Assembly: GCF_032884065.1 (NCBI RefSeq)
Contig: NC_088868.1
Span: forward strand, 3,405,043-3,469,042
From: Artemia franciscana
Taxonomy: Eukaryota; Arthropoda; Branchiopoda; Anostraca; Artemiidae
Direction: 5' to 3'
Length of the DNA stretch: 64,000 nucleotides
Within the stretch, counting starts at the first letter, position 1. Each line of letters starts with the position of its first letter. The notes under the pieces are model-generated. The model had not been told where the DNA came from. It searched no databases and was given only the letters and a program-made list of their open reading frames with translations. This document shows, one piece after another, positions 13,501-19,500 of the stretch. The position numbers were made by a program, and so were the translations under genes.

Positions 13501-16500
13501 GGAGAAGCAGCATAATCAGTAGTAGCAATAGTTTTGGTGGCAGCAGTAGCAGTATAGAGTAATAACAGTAGCAATAGTAGAAATGATAGTAGAAGCAGTA
13601 GTAGCAGTAGAAATAGTAGTAGTAAGATACAAATATTGCCTCTTGGTTAGTCCAACATCAACCACGAAAAGTCCTGCAAAATTCAACTTCACATACCTGG
13701 TCGTTGCTAAAATATCGCTGATACGGCTTTTTGACAACTAGCATGCAAAGGAAGTGTTGTGATTCATTTCAACTCCCCCCTCAATATTTTCTGAAATTTT
13801 CCCCTTCAAACACTTTGCCATAGTTGTAAGAGTAGTCACGGTTGTAGTAGTAGGTGTATTAGTTCTAGAAATAGTTGTAGTACTGGCAGTATTAGCTCTA
13901 GCACTAGAAGCAGCAGCACCATTTACGTATTATTATTTGGTCAGTTAAATACACCCATAATTAAGGCGTAGAAATTCAAACGTAGGACAATTAGCCATTG
14001 ATATAACATTGCCGATTTGGCCTTTTGATATGCAGTGAATCCGTAGTGTGTTTTAATTCAGCTGAACTTTTCCCTCAAACTATTACTACTACCACTAACA
14101 ACTTACCGCAGCACCAAGCCCCCTGAGACCAACACAGCTGCATACGCTCCTCCTCTATCCCAATCTATTCCAAGCCTCCCTCTTTACATCTTCTCAGGAT
14201 GTTCTTATTTCCCTTCAATCTTTCTTTATGACATCGTTGCACCCCAATCACAGACGACCTGCTTTTTGTTAAGCCCTTGATGGTTGGCTAAAAAAGGACA
14301 ATCTTCGCCAACCTCTCATTTTTCAGCAGGCTGTCATCCTTCATCCACAGAACGTGCCCAAGCCCTCTCAAAGTTCTTTTTTTATTGTAGCCCTAGAAAG
14401 CGGGATAGAACCACATTTTTCATACAGACTACTGCTTGAGATACGGTCAGTTAGCCAGGTGCTCCAAACAGTCCATAGAAAATTTCTCTGAAAAATATTA
14501 AACAAATCTTCATCTGCTTTTCGGAGCACCCATGCTTCAGAACCATATTTGACCACTGTCACCACTGTAGCTTCCAATATTCTAATCTTGGTTTACAGAC
14601 TTATCTTTCTATTCTTCCATACTTTTTTTTAACTGTGAAAAAAAAACACCCCGAACTTTGGCTATTCCACTTTTAATATTTTCACTGCTCCCACCGTCTT
14701 TACTAATAATACTACCAAAGTAAATGAAGCTATCCATATGATCAATCTTTTCGTTACCCCGTGCAATCATATTAATACTAGCATTAATAATAATGCTAGG
14801 CAGTATTCATATTAGGTAGTAGTATGCAAATATTGTATTTTAATAGCGACGAAGACCACACTGCCTGTCCATAACAAACAAACACAAAGAAAAAACAATA
14901 GGGAAAATCTTTTCAAGACAGTAGAAATAAATTCTGTGAATATTTCGGCCCTATGTCCAGAGGCCGTCTTCAGCACAATACGAGAAAGAGAGAGAGAAAA
15001 AAAAATATATATAAATAAACTTATATTAGAATAATGTAAAGTTTATTTATATACATTTTTTTTCTCTCTTTCTCGTATTGTGCTGAAGACGGCCCTTGGA
15101 CAAAGGGCCGAAATATTCACAGAATTGATTTCCAAGTCTTGAAAAGATTTTCCCTATTGTTTCTACTTTGTGTTTGTTTGTTGTATTTTAATCGGTTGAA
15201 AATCCCCCTCATGATGCCTTTTACGTTCCAGCTTGATACAGTGAGCTATTCTAAAGATATAGCGTCCAAACATTGCCTTTTGGTCAATTGACCTACCCTT
15301 TAAGCATTCCCTGAAAGTACAGGCATAATATCCTAGATATTATGTTCCTGAGAGTACATAATATCTAGAGTACATAATATCATCCCTTTAAGCATTCCCT
15401 GAAAGTACAGGCATAATATCCTAGATATTATGTTCCTGAGAGTACATAATATCTAGAGTACATAATATCATCCCTTTAAGCATTCCCTGAAAGTACAGGC
15501 ATAATAACCTAGCCAATTCCTGAGATACACCCATTCAAAAATCTACACGCAGATAGTATGTTTTGATTTAGTTCAAATTTCTCCACTATATTCTTTCAAA
15601 TATTCTCCTTGCTACCATTGTTTTAAATGTATGAGTATTGTAGCAGAAGTGATAATAGTAGGAGCAATGGTAGCATTAGTAGTCTTGTATTAATTTTAGC
15701 AAAAACAATAATAATAGTAGTATTGTTAGCAGTAGTAGTACGTACATGTTGCATTTTGGCCAGTTGGACATCCCCAATAATTCCCAAGAAGTTTCAGGTC
15801 AATACGATAGGCCGTTTCAAAGATATTGCTGATACAACGTTTAGAAAATCGGTATGCACATAATACATTTTGAGTTAGTTCAAATACAGCGATTTAGATA
15901 CACCGTTTAGACAATCACTATGCACATAATATATTTTGATCTAGTTCAAATTTTACCTAAAATTTCCTCAAATTCTTACTGCAATACCCTCAGCCTTGGT
16001 AGTACTCACTATAGAAGCTGTGGTTGTAGTAGCTGTAGCAGTAGTGATCACCCCCTCTTTTCATTTCCTAGAAGTTCCAAACTAATACACTCAGTCATTC
16101 ATGAGTTACGCCCTTTTGACTACTCTTATACACATAACATGTTTTGATTTAACTTAAAAATTGTTAAATGTGTTTTGATTTAGTATCCCTCAACATTTTC
16201 TGAAAAATTCGCCTGAATGAACTTTGTCTTTTTGGAAACAAAAGGTCAAATACCCCACATTTCTCAACAACAAATACTATATGTAAACAATGGAAAATCA
16301 TATAGCTTACAACCCTTGCCCCTTGGGCTTTGGTACGGGGAGACGGTATCTGGTTGACATCCAAAAAGACATAGCTACTTGGCGTTTTAACTATACCAAA
16401 AATTGCAATCTCAAAATTTCGATTCAATGTGTCTGGGGAATTGATGGGCGTCGGAAGGTGGCTGTTTGCCCTCCAATTACTTTTGATTCTTAAAAACGGC

Positions 16501-19500
16501 ACTGGGACTTCCAAATTCCGCTATTGCACTGCCTATAATATGGTCGTCAAGTTGGATACCCAAAACAATCCTTAGGTAATTTTGGCGGAAAACGTCTAAC
16601 AAAAAATCCTACGTTTTTTAGAACGCCCACGCTTCTGAACCATACTTGACCGCTGTCATCACTATAGCTTCTGATATTTTAATCTTGTTTCACAGACTTA
16701 TCTTCTTATTATTCTCAACTTTTTTCAACTGTAAAAAAATGCTCTGGGTCTTGGCTGTTTTACTTTAAATTTCTTAACTGCGCTCACTGTCTTTACTAAT
16801 ATTACTACATAGGTAGGGGAAACTGTCAAATTGATTGATCTTATCATTGTCCAACATCACCTCCTCACTTTTACTTATTCTTAGTCTTAACGACTTAGTC
16901 TTCTTGGCATTATTTTTCAAATTTAGTCTTGCACCCTAAACTCTTAAAACCTCTAAAAATTTTGCTAACGTTTATTTGGCTAATTTGGCTAACAATTAGG
17001 CTAACATTTCATAAGGGATGCTTAAATAATCAGCTTAATCTAAATCTAGGAGAGTTTTACGTTCCAAATAGATCCCGTGTATTTCCATAGCAGTTGATGT
17101 GCTCCTTAAGACTAAGTCTATCAAAAGGATTTATGTAAATGGAGTTTACCCTATTTAACTTCTGATTCAAAAAGAAGCCAAATAGTAATCTTATTTCCTG
17201 CCTTGGCTGGAGCAATATTATCTCGTGCAATTAATAATTATTTCTACAATAACTCCCTGCTGATTTTGCCCCGTCGTTCGGCTCGTCGCTGGTCTGGAAT
17301 ATACTGAATTCTGTTTGTAAGATCCAAAAGGGAAAGGTTTCAAGTTAGGTATCAAGTGCTATTCATTGCAATTAAATATAAGCTGAATGATAAAACTCCT
17401 ATTGATCAATCCCAAAATTCAGAACAGAAATTAAAGAAGCAAATATTATTTATTTATTTTTGTTTGTTCAACATTGATGATGTCCGAGAGAGCAAGGGTT
17501 CGAATCCTTGTGTACCCAAAAATATGGTTTGGGACAGGGGTCAATGAAATGACTCTGTAAGCTCAGCCAAAGTCGACCCAGCTCTAAATGGGTACCTGGA
17601 GAAATCTGGGGAAGGTAGACAGGAAGGGTGTGCGAAAGCACAGGATGGTTGGCCCATCCCATTGCCCTTCCTGGCTGAAGGGCCAAGAAACAGAGATGAG
17701 ACCCGCCAGAAGGGACTGTAAAGTCCAAAGCTGCATTCCTTACCGTTACCTTTACCATTGATGATGTAATATCAAACTTACGATATTTTTATTTTGTGTG
17801 TTTTGTTTTTGTGACCCCTGATGGGATGGCCCCCCACGCTCCTCTTGCCCAGCATTTCTTTCATTCCCTTTTTTATCCAATTCCTTGCAAGAGTTAGAAA
17901 AAAAGATTATTTTACGAACATCGAGCAGAAATTACTAATTGACAAAGCCTTTTTTTTGTTAATTCAGCGATGAATAGCAAATTTCAGTCAACAAAATTCC
18001 TCATCATTAACTATGATCGTAAAGCGGAATACAAACCCTGTTACATCAAGGTTAATTTTTAAGAGCATTTACCTCTCTCAACTGGTGATTACGCTCTGCT
18101 TTAGTTAGTTGACGAGATTCAGACGCAGGAAAATTCTGTTGAACCCCAGGAGCGACTGTTTCTCCACTATGCTTCCTTTTTCTAGGACTTCTTCTAAGAG
18201 GCAGAGGACTGCTGGCTGATTGCTGTCTTGTTAAACTTTCTAAAGAATAAAGTAATACAATATTAACTCTTATAAGCAACTTGTTAGCACGATGTAAAGA
18301 TAATACAAGTTAAAAAATGATCTATTTCAACAAATGAGTGACTAAAAAATTTCTACGTAGGATATTTAATTCTTGTCAAAAATCAAAATAAATTCAATCA
18401 GGAATTCAGAACGGCCATAAAGTTGAATACACAATTAAAGCATAAAATTAAAGCACAGATATTATAAATAAACAGAAATTATTACATACATGAGGGGAGC
18501 TGCCCTTTCCTTAACCCCGCCTTTTAAGTTACAGTCTAAAAGTTCATAATTAAAAAACTTTTCATTCGAGTTCAGCGACCCATGTGTTTAAGCACACTTT
18601 TTTTTATAGAAACCTGACAAGAAATCAAACTTTACTGTAAAGAGTGAGGGTTGAAAAAAGAACAGCCCTCGTCCCCCCCCCCCAAACCTACGAAGTAATT
18701 GTTGTTTAATGTAACTTTCAATTGAGAAAAGTTGTTTTTATATTTGCTACCTGATTATTTTTCAAATCATCCTAGGCAATCCCCTTCCCCTTATACAAAA
18801 TTTCCCCTAACGAAAGTAAAACAGTTCAAAATAGGGATGAAATCTTTTTATTGACAGTGAATAGATATAAAAATTATTTAACTGGATATTTCGAACAGCA
18901 GTAAAACTGCTGATGATGAATACTGTATATGTGTTCGAAACATCCAGTTAAATAACTTTATATCTATTCACTGTCAATAAAAAGGTTTCATCCCTATTTT
19001 GAACTGTAATACTTTCGTCATAGAAAGGCAGTGTAGTCATCGAAGTTATCTACGTAAAATTTCCCCTGAAAAATTCCCCCGAAAACTTTACTCTGAACCG
19101 AAAATTTTCCCAGTGGAAAATTCCTCTCTAGAATATTGTCTCCACTCCCCCCCCCAACCCCGAAAAACGGTTTGCCTCCCTATAAGACACACTAGGCTGA
19201 GTGTGAACAAAGAACTGTATACCTTGCAGCCCTTTCGTTAGGTACTATGTGTCATGTCATCATTTTTGGAAACTAAGGCCAAAAAATTGAAAAAAAGTAC
19301 CAAAAAAATTGCAGAGCATTTATTTTATCATACGTAACAGATACATACTTGAATCCAAGTTTCTAGGGGTATAATAAAAAAAAATTCTGGGGCGGAAAAT
19401 TTAGGTTAGATTGAACAGATGATGCATTTTCACAGATAACAATTGTGGAAATTTAATCGGGGTTAAGGGGGCAAAAATAGGAAAAACAAAATACTCAAAA

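Follow-up and report, generated by a model that had tools for sequence, protein, structure and literature searches.

The 64 kb window (the whole stretch of DNA analyzed) holds two short inserts, A and B, and raises the question of what they are and how each acquired its inverted arms. The original prediction had read both as insertions of one small, non-autonomous inverted-repeat retroelement of Penelope-like origin, with hammerhead-like cores and flanking target-site duplications (TSDs). The two loci comprise the following features, with arms named after the pLTRs of Penelope-like elements (PLEs).

14833..14844, no strand: A TSD, left copy, TTGTATTTTAAT (12/12 match to 15181-15192, two occurrences in window)
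14845..14874, minus: A tail, 5' end of the PLE frame (MDRQCGLRR at this locus; most full frames that were read have MERQCGLRR)
14875..14980, minus: A tail-proximal pLTR arm, hammerhead outward (arm blocks, family members)
14934..14978, minus: A predicted minimal type I hammerhead core, tail-proximal arm (descriptor match)
14981..15075, no strand: A head-to-head centre, two truncated pLTR 5' stretches, largely complementary
15076..15180, plus: A inverted pLTR arm, tail-less (arm blocks)
15078..15122, plus: A predicted minimal type I hammerhead core, inverted arm (descriptor match)
15181..15192, no strand: A TSD, right copy (exact repeat)
18797..18808, no strand: B TSD, left copy, AAAATTTCCCCT (exact repeat)
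18809..18897, minus: B inverted pLTR arm, tail-less, without CTGANGA (arm blocks)
18898..18904, no strand: B centre junction, private among copies compared (junction comparison)
18905..19018, plus: B tail-proximal pLTR arm (arm blocks)
18905..18949, plus: B predicted minimal type I hammerhead core (palindrome ACAT; most B-like cores have ATAT)
19019..19055, plus: B tail, 5' end of the B-type PLE frame (MERQCGHRSYLRR in the L027 counterpart)
19056..19067, no strand: B TSD, right copy (exact repeat)

The exact 12-bp TSDs are as predicted, each sequence occurring only twice in 64 kb with both strands searched, and they enclose 336 bp at A and 247 bp at B. The order of arm, centre, inverted arm and tail also holds: ungapped blocks pair 14924-15000 with 15056-15132 (92%) and 14873-14919 with 15136-15182 (96%) in A, and 18810-18871 with 18957-19018 (95%) and 18870-18897 with 18932-18959 (93%) in B, and gapped arm identity over the entire inserts is 88% and 85%, respectively. 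In both, a tail of 30-37 nt lies outside one arm only, and the sequence common to the two tails, AGGCAGTGTRGTCWTCG, is free of mismatches only at 19026 (+) and 14850 (-), with 3 or 4 mismatches elsewhere in the window. Outside the tail, the tail-proximal arms of A and B align with a local score of 27 (shuffle mean 16.7), which 3 of 1000 shuffles equal; for the inverted arms, 6 of 1000 shuffles were as good, and with the tail included none of 1000 was.

The hammerhead-like core expected in each tail-proximal arm was recovered with a 45-nt descriptor (stem I of 5 bp, CTGANGA, 0-1 extra nucleotide, stem II, GAA, ANNT, H, stem I) that was composed after the sequences were seen; searched on both strands, it matched three sites in the window, namely both arms of A and the tail arm of B. 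In 200 dinucleotide-shuffled versions, none shorter than 95% of the window, it matched 0 times on either strand. Between the A and B families, 6 of 11 stem pairs have changed on both sides with pairing kept. Rfam yielded no match at gathering scores. Relaxing the limit to E 10 for 14000-20000 brought 24 matches but still no hammerhead; all scored under their cut-offs, and models of microRNA hairpins ranked first (MIR841 at 94 bits vs 200). On the motif and its pairing, we predict that both arms of A and the tail arm of B carry a minimal type I hammerhead within the pLTR, which is probably part of the parent RNA and a passenger in these inserts. Minimal hammerheads of PLEs were reportedly described by Cervera and De la Pena in 2014 and Lunse et al. 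in 2017; the present cores share their minimal type I architecture and very small helix III, but place one additional nucleotide between CUGANGA and stem II. Minimal type I hammerheads with a tiny helix III are, in the consulted part of PMC7761336, thought to work as dimers. A scan of IMG/VR for the tail found exact matches in 20 contigs (G+C 0.35-0.64), none with a core within 250 nt upstream, and these were taken as chance.

Copies and relatives were then sought in the 1.27 Gb host genome, a test set beforehand, and the copies carried tail and TSDs, and longer relatives encoded RVT_1 and GIY-YIG domains. An A-type pLTR arm lay within 1.5 kb of the GIY-YIG match at 25 of 30 loci (the best 30 of 150 scored, some of them neighbours in one array and counted without a control). 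Uninterrupted frames at GIY-YIG loci span 869-898 codons, and both frames scanned (L094 and L095, 889 and 890 aa) contain RVT_1 (4.8e-12, 1.7e-11) and GIY-YIG (4.6e-8, 2.6e-8), the frames at L094 standing in a tandem array with a period of ~2.9 kb and A-type pLTRs in between. The A tail is the beginning of this PLE frame (MERQCGLRR), and the B tail leads into a related N-terminus, of which ~95 codons were read, in L027 only, and which is identical to the A protein at 38 of 89 aa (43%; E 2e-24 in a one-sequence comparison). Both families present a pLTR with an optional tail of 30-40 bp that is the ORF start, with a presumed start codon in a frame open upstream. In canonical GIY-YIG PLEs, two RT start sites define the tail, and a hammerhead lies near the ORF start (PMC11167929); the closest known systems are of this kind, for example Pen2a of Adineta vaga (PMC3846280) and PAc of Anolis (PMC11167929), and the consulted part of PMC8969392 counts inverted pLTRs and short 3' extensions among the peculiarities of PLEs. 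Unlike canonical PLEs, A and B consist of two pLTRs alone, with no ORF beyond the tail codons and, across the copies, TSDs of mostly 11-13 bp. We are confident that A and B are insertions, non-autonomous and without an ORF, of two related PLE families, with the GIY-YIG type read from A-type frames and predicted for B. This supports the Penelope-like origin originally predicted and corrects the view of a single element, the B N-terminus being 43% identical to that of A.

The tail follows a rule in these copies. Script-called TSDs of 7-14 bp, mostly 11-13 bp, flanked 26 of 30 B copies from a tail-free query, and swapping flanks among 22 copies gave any TSD match in 4 of 462 pairs. All 40 copies from this query, which favours copies with complete arms, have exactly one tail (28 by script, 2 degraded ones by eye and 10 from match rows). 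With a tail-containing query added, one tail was found at 64 of 69 B-type places, the exceptions by match rows being four with tails flanking the inverted pair on both sides and one without a tail (C7:24107815); L027, the one of the four two-tailed places that was read, is a longer element, and its termini too carry a single tail. A-type pairs, in a tail-biased sample, lack the tail on the inverted side and have it on the other in 12 of 12 cases, and their tail ends are more scattered (L036 and L043 extend ~15-20 nt further), so the outer start is not a single site. An independent choice of tail or no tail at each end was rejected, since it predicts one tail in at most half. Microhomology at the target was slight: across the 16 of 26 copies that could be scored, overlap averaged 1.1 nt on the tail side and 0.3 nt on the opposite side (nine were dropped because the anchor was not found, and one was without an exact TSD). 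The idea of young B pLTRs without inverted partners was dropped because the same search gives only 28-69 for B's own inverted arm, though this arm is complete.

The centres vary from copy to copy. The 34 B-type copies compared have 32 different centre junctions, each of 12 A-type centres differs from the others, and copies sharing flanks retain their junction at 2.5-4.5% divergence. The inverted arrangement of the original prediction stands, but probably not as an inherited structure: with 32 distinct junctions in 34 copies, the inverted repeat seems to be made anew at each insertion. Later deletions in palindromes may account for part of the junction differences. Together, the varied junctions and the predominance of one tail point to head-to-head joining of two pLTR cDNAs at each insertion. 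We propose that the PLE protein would cut the two target strands ~12 bp apart, that one 3' end would prime reverse transcription in an outer zone (the tail end), that the other would do so in an inner zone immediately ahead of the ORF start, and that both cDNAs would run inward across the pLTR and be joined at their stopping points. The product would be two pLTRs head to head between 12-bp TSDs, with a tail of ~30-40 nt (the first PLE codons) at one end. On balance, we lean towards double priming as the origin of the two arms; that it is asymmetric, normally with one outer and one inner start, and that the one-tail inverted repeat is a regular product of PLE insertion and not an accident, we put forward only tentatively. 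A counterpoint is that the unequal ends demand different start zones per strand, and the RT start site showed no strand difference in vitro (PMC11167929).

The second arm could have another origin that keeps the PLE identity and differs in this respect only. By self-priming, as proposed from palindromes at inverted junctions in the consulted part of PMC3846280, a cDNA started in the tail would reach the 5' part of the pLTR, fold back, copy outward to the ORF start and join the other target end, giving one tail per element if copying always halts before the tail. The closer arms that it predicts within a copy were found (distance 0.068 vs 0.116 in random pairings; 0/20000 permutations), but a common subfamily explains these too. 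In 12 of the 34 copies, as judged from the alignment and with L100 doubtful, the tail-less arm has 5' sequence absent from the tail arm, which fold-back cannot supply without later deletion, and among 18 states found in exactly two arms one is shared within a copy, where 0.27 are expected by chance pairing. That flank-sharing copies keep their junctions speaks weakly against frequent later revision, and we consider self-priming possible, if on the unlikely side. It is improbable that a master copy, that is, the inverted-repeat element itself, was transcribed and copied as a true small non-autonomous family. The many tails (1485 exact B-type 29-mers, 0 in the reversed control) and one junction class in three copies without common flanks (L098, L105 and L124) would fit such a family, but the diversity of B-type junctions and the 12 differing A-type centres do not, and its transcript would form one long hairpin (predicted z of -19.5 and -30.4).

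Two further readings would remove A and B from the PLEs. Animal non-LTR retrozymes, described in the consulted part of PMC7229834 as tandemly repeated units that carry canonical type I hammerheads and have circular RNA, resemble A and B in being small and non-coding with a hammerhead and TSDs; the size range, TSDs longer than 4 bp and an array of five B tails in one orientation, spaced by 318-338 bp, would suit them. Unlike the direct tandem canonical units reported there, A and B are inverted pairs of minimal cores, with no closed helix III, joined to a PLE pLTR and frame start, which makes a retrozyme very unlikely. A MITE or foldback DNA transposon with a chance hammerhead-like motif would account for inverted arms and TSDs, but we give it next to no credence: the ends are unequal and not symmetrical TIRs, the tail standing at one end in 64 of the 69 places, and the arms are pLTRs of elements with RT and GIY-YIG in the same genome; for A, the common pLTR and frame start already argue against it.

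The PLE, its pLTR, tail and hammerhead were known already, and the useful part lies in the tail rule and the junction diversity, which are countable tests of double priming vs self-priming. None of the 11 papers compared for the two terms contained both 'pLTR' and 'twin priming'. Short inserts of pLTRs only record single events, with both ends, the cDNA stops and the join within ~250 bp, and such abundant copies give clues to the insertion of the poorly understood PLEs. When the window was searched for other PLE pieces, tblastn with a single A-type protein recovered the A tail only (E 0.97), and comparison with pLTR units gave two further weak matches, at 9244-9264 (21 nt, E 0.006) and 63487-63516 (30 nt, E 0.002).

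The two insertions described in the original prediction, each bracketed by 12-bp target-site duplications (TSDs), are both present in the window, with a tandem repeat next to A:

14845-15180, insert A, 336 bp
18809-19055, insert B, 247 bp
15296-15512, just outside A, tandem repeat of an 88-bp unit (2.5 copies, 99% identical)

Both TSDs are exact and each occurs only twice within the window, where the 17-nt motif shared by the tails (about 30-40 nt at one end of each insert) has mismatch-free matches only at A and B. The claimed inverted arms are 92-96% complementary in ungapped blocks (85-88% across whole inserts with gaps allowed), and the claimed hammerhead cores were recovered with a 45-nt descriptor, composed after the sequences had been seen, that matched three times in the window, all within A and B, and never in 200 dinucleotide shuffles. 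The relatedness of A and B extends beyond the tail into the arms, a point absent from that first account.

A and B are almost certainly ORF-less insertions of Penelope-like elements (PLEs), their arms being two head-to-head copies of the PLE pseudo-LTR (pLTR). In the host genome (1.27 Gb, 6,468 contigs, including the window), a GIY-YIG search gave 150 matches above cut-off (best 150 of 1,778 candidates scored), and the pLTR unit of the A-type family lay within the fetched flanks at 25 of the 30 best loci; the others (L059, L060, L061, L071, and L078) lacked it there and are possibly other PLE families or shortened copies. Six of nine longer stretches held uninterrupted frames of 869-898 codons, and the proposed search for tail-sharing relatives succeeded, as both frames scanned carry RVT_1 and GIY-YIG and the A tail is the start of such a frame. 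At one locus (L094:1414-7351), uninterrupted PLE frames are arrayed head-to-tail with a 2.9-kb period and a pLTR between consecutive frames, an arrangement pointing to an A-type family that was recently active. The protein encoded there has 864 residues counted from its MEKQCG start; the A tail, as the first codons of this frame, reads MDRQCGLRR in the window, and the B tail translates in the same frame. At L027, a B-type tail opens into a frame (MERQCGHRSYLRRVYGDNVTKEV onward, about 95 codons) identical to the A-type protein at 38 of 89 residues (E 2e-24). Because the tails read as PLE frame starts and the L027 N-terminus resembles the A-type protein, A and B are, judged by sequence, members of two related PLE families; of the single non-autonomous element first proposed, the PLE origin stands and the singularity does not.

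Most of the B-type copies sampled carry exactly one tail. A tail-free B query matched both strands across nearly the entire inverted pair at all 40 places scored (best 40 of 834 candidates; 30 read). A script placed the tail at exactly one end in 28 of the 30 read; L098 and L099 scored too low, with a degraded tail visible by eye at one end, and the remaining 10 places had it on a single strand by B-query match rows. Exactly one tail is thus found at 40/40 places, or 37 insertions once the flank-sharing copies L106, L117, and L121 are removed. A tail-containing query added 29 places: 24 one-sided (six read; at C8:1063720, counted here, 12 nt of the tail also match on the opposite side), four two-sided, and one inverted pair, G000:C7:24107815-24108020, with no tail at either end by match rows. 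Pooled, 64 of 69 places bear a single tail. L027, the one two-sided place read, comprises a tailed inverted pLTR, a direct pLTR, an ORF fragment, and a tail-less direct pLTR (boundaries by eye) between copies of (G)GAACCTCAA, so that its two termini again carry one tail. A script recovered 7-14-bp TSDs from 26 of the 30 copies read, the exceptions being L098, L099, L118, and L125; the expectation that genome copies share tail and TSDs is borne out in most copies examined. Swapping flanks among 22 copies with TSDs gave any match in 4/462 pairs. B-type TSDs are 72% A+T (16 copies), and end positions on two reference stretches span 5-16 for tail ends and 6-11 for other ends (16/26 copies). All 12 A-type pairs had the tail on the direct side and none on the inverted side (inverted scores up to 16), in a sample drawn with a tail-containing query, in which tail-less pairs could not appear. 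At L051 the tail continues into an ORF and so is not the terminus there; at L036 and L043 it extends about 15-20 nt further, reaching flanks that repeat the opposite flank with one mismatch (by eye).

Among 34 B-type copies (the 30 minus three duplicates, plus seven from the B-query search), 32 distinct centre junctions were placed by alignment, and flank-sharing copies kept theirs unchanged at 2.5-4.5% divergence. No two of the 12 A-type centres were identical (79-384 nt); the longest, at L054, exceeds the next by about 120 nt and is perhaps captured DNA. Arms of one B-type copy are closer than random pairings (0.068 vs 0.116; 0/20,000 permutations), yet the partner arm was nearest or tied in just 9/34 copies. 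Minority states occurred 83 times in both arms of a copy and 158 times in one, and of 18 states found in exactly two arms, one fell within a copy (0.27 expected). In our reading, the pairs would be two cDNAs of the same subfamily, joined anew at each insertion.

In the parts of PMC11167929 considered here, a PLE protein acts on both strands by cutting and extending them, favors AT-rich ATT sites, and has two internal start sites that define the tail. Such biochemistry would explain the inserts by two priming events, one on each target strand, each using a different one of two start zones, and we lean towards this double priming as the way the inverted arm arose. That both zones are normally used once each is not predicted by the portions of that work considered, which report no strand difference. 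Self-priming, put forward in the consulted part of PMC3846280, would account for the single tail but leaves tail-less arms with additional 5' sequence unexplained (of the 34 copies, 21 have the longer 5' reach in the tail arm and 12, with L100 doubtful, in the tail-less arm, and one shows no difference), and we consider it less likely. PLEs, inverted pLTRs, tails, TSDs, and minimal hammerheads are already known; the abundance of ORF-less pairs, the counts of tails, and the variety of junctions were not found in the portions of the PLE literature examined.

The window and the fetched loci together gave 52 distinct hammerhead 45-mers (36 A-like, 14 B-like, and two other), with one layout kept by both families. 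Of 11 stem pairs, six differ on both sides between families yet still pair and four are unchanged, covariation that supports a conserved RNA structure; the outermost is mostly lost in B-like cores (paired in 4/14). The palindrome is ATAT in 33/36 A-like and 12/14 B-like cores, and ACAT in B in the window. Since each insert is predicted to fold, as RNA, into a single long hairpin, the putative ribozyme would more likely act in the parent PLE RNA than in the inserts. Seventeen of the 34 tail-bearing arms (L098-L126, L022-L028) start at one of the first four positions of the reference, some 7-10 nt upstream of the CTGATGA core; the reference itself begins at this limit, and longer arms would escape detection. 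The clustering may mark an abrupt 5' boundary of the template, one that cleavage at the hammerhead site, 3' of the core, would not produce.

Both types are numerous in the host genome. Query B matched at all 40 places scored (best 40 of 2,072 first-look candidates), and query A gave 94 match rows from the best 40 of 1,918 candidates scored. A 29-mer from the B-type tail has 1,485 exact matches (724 and 761 by strand), a count of tails rather than inverted pairs, and its reversed control has 0. Five exact B-type tails lie on one strand at G000:C1:41785844-41787189, spaced 318-338 bp apart, apparently a short direct tandem array of the B-type unit, perhaps retrozyme-like or an ORF-deleted PLE array.
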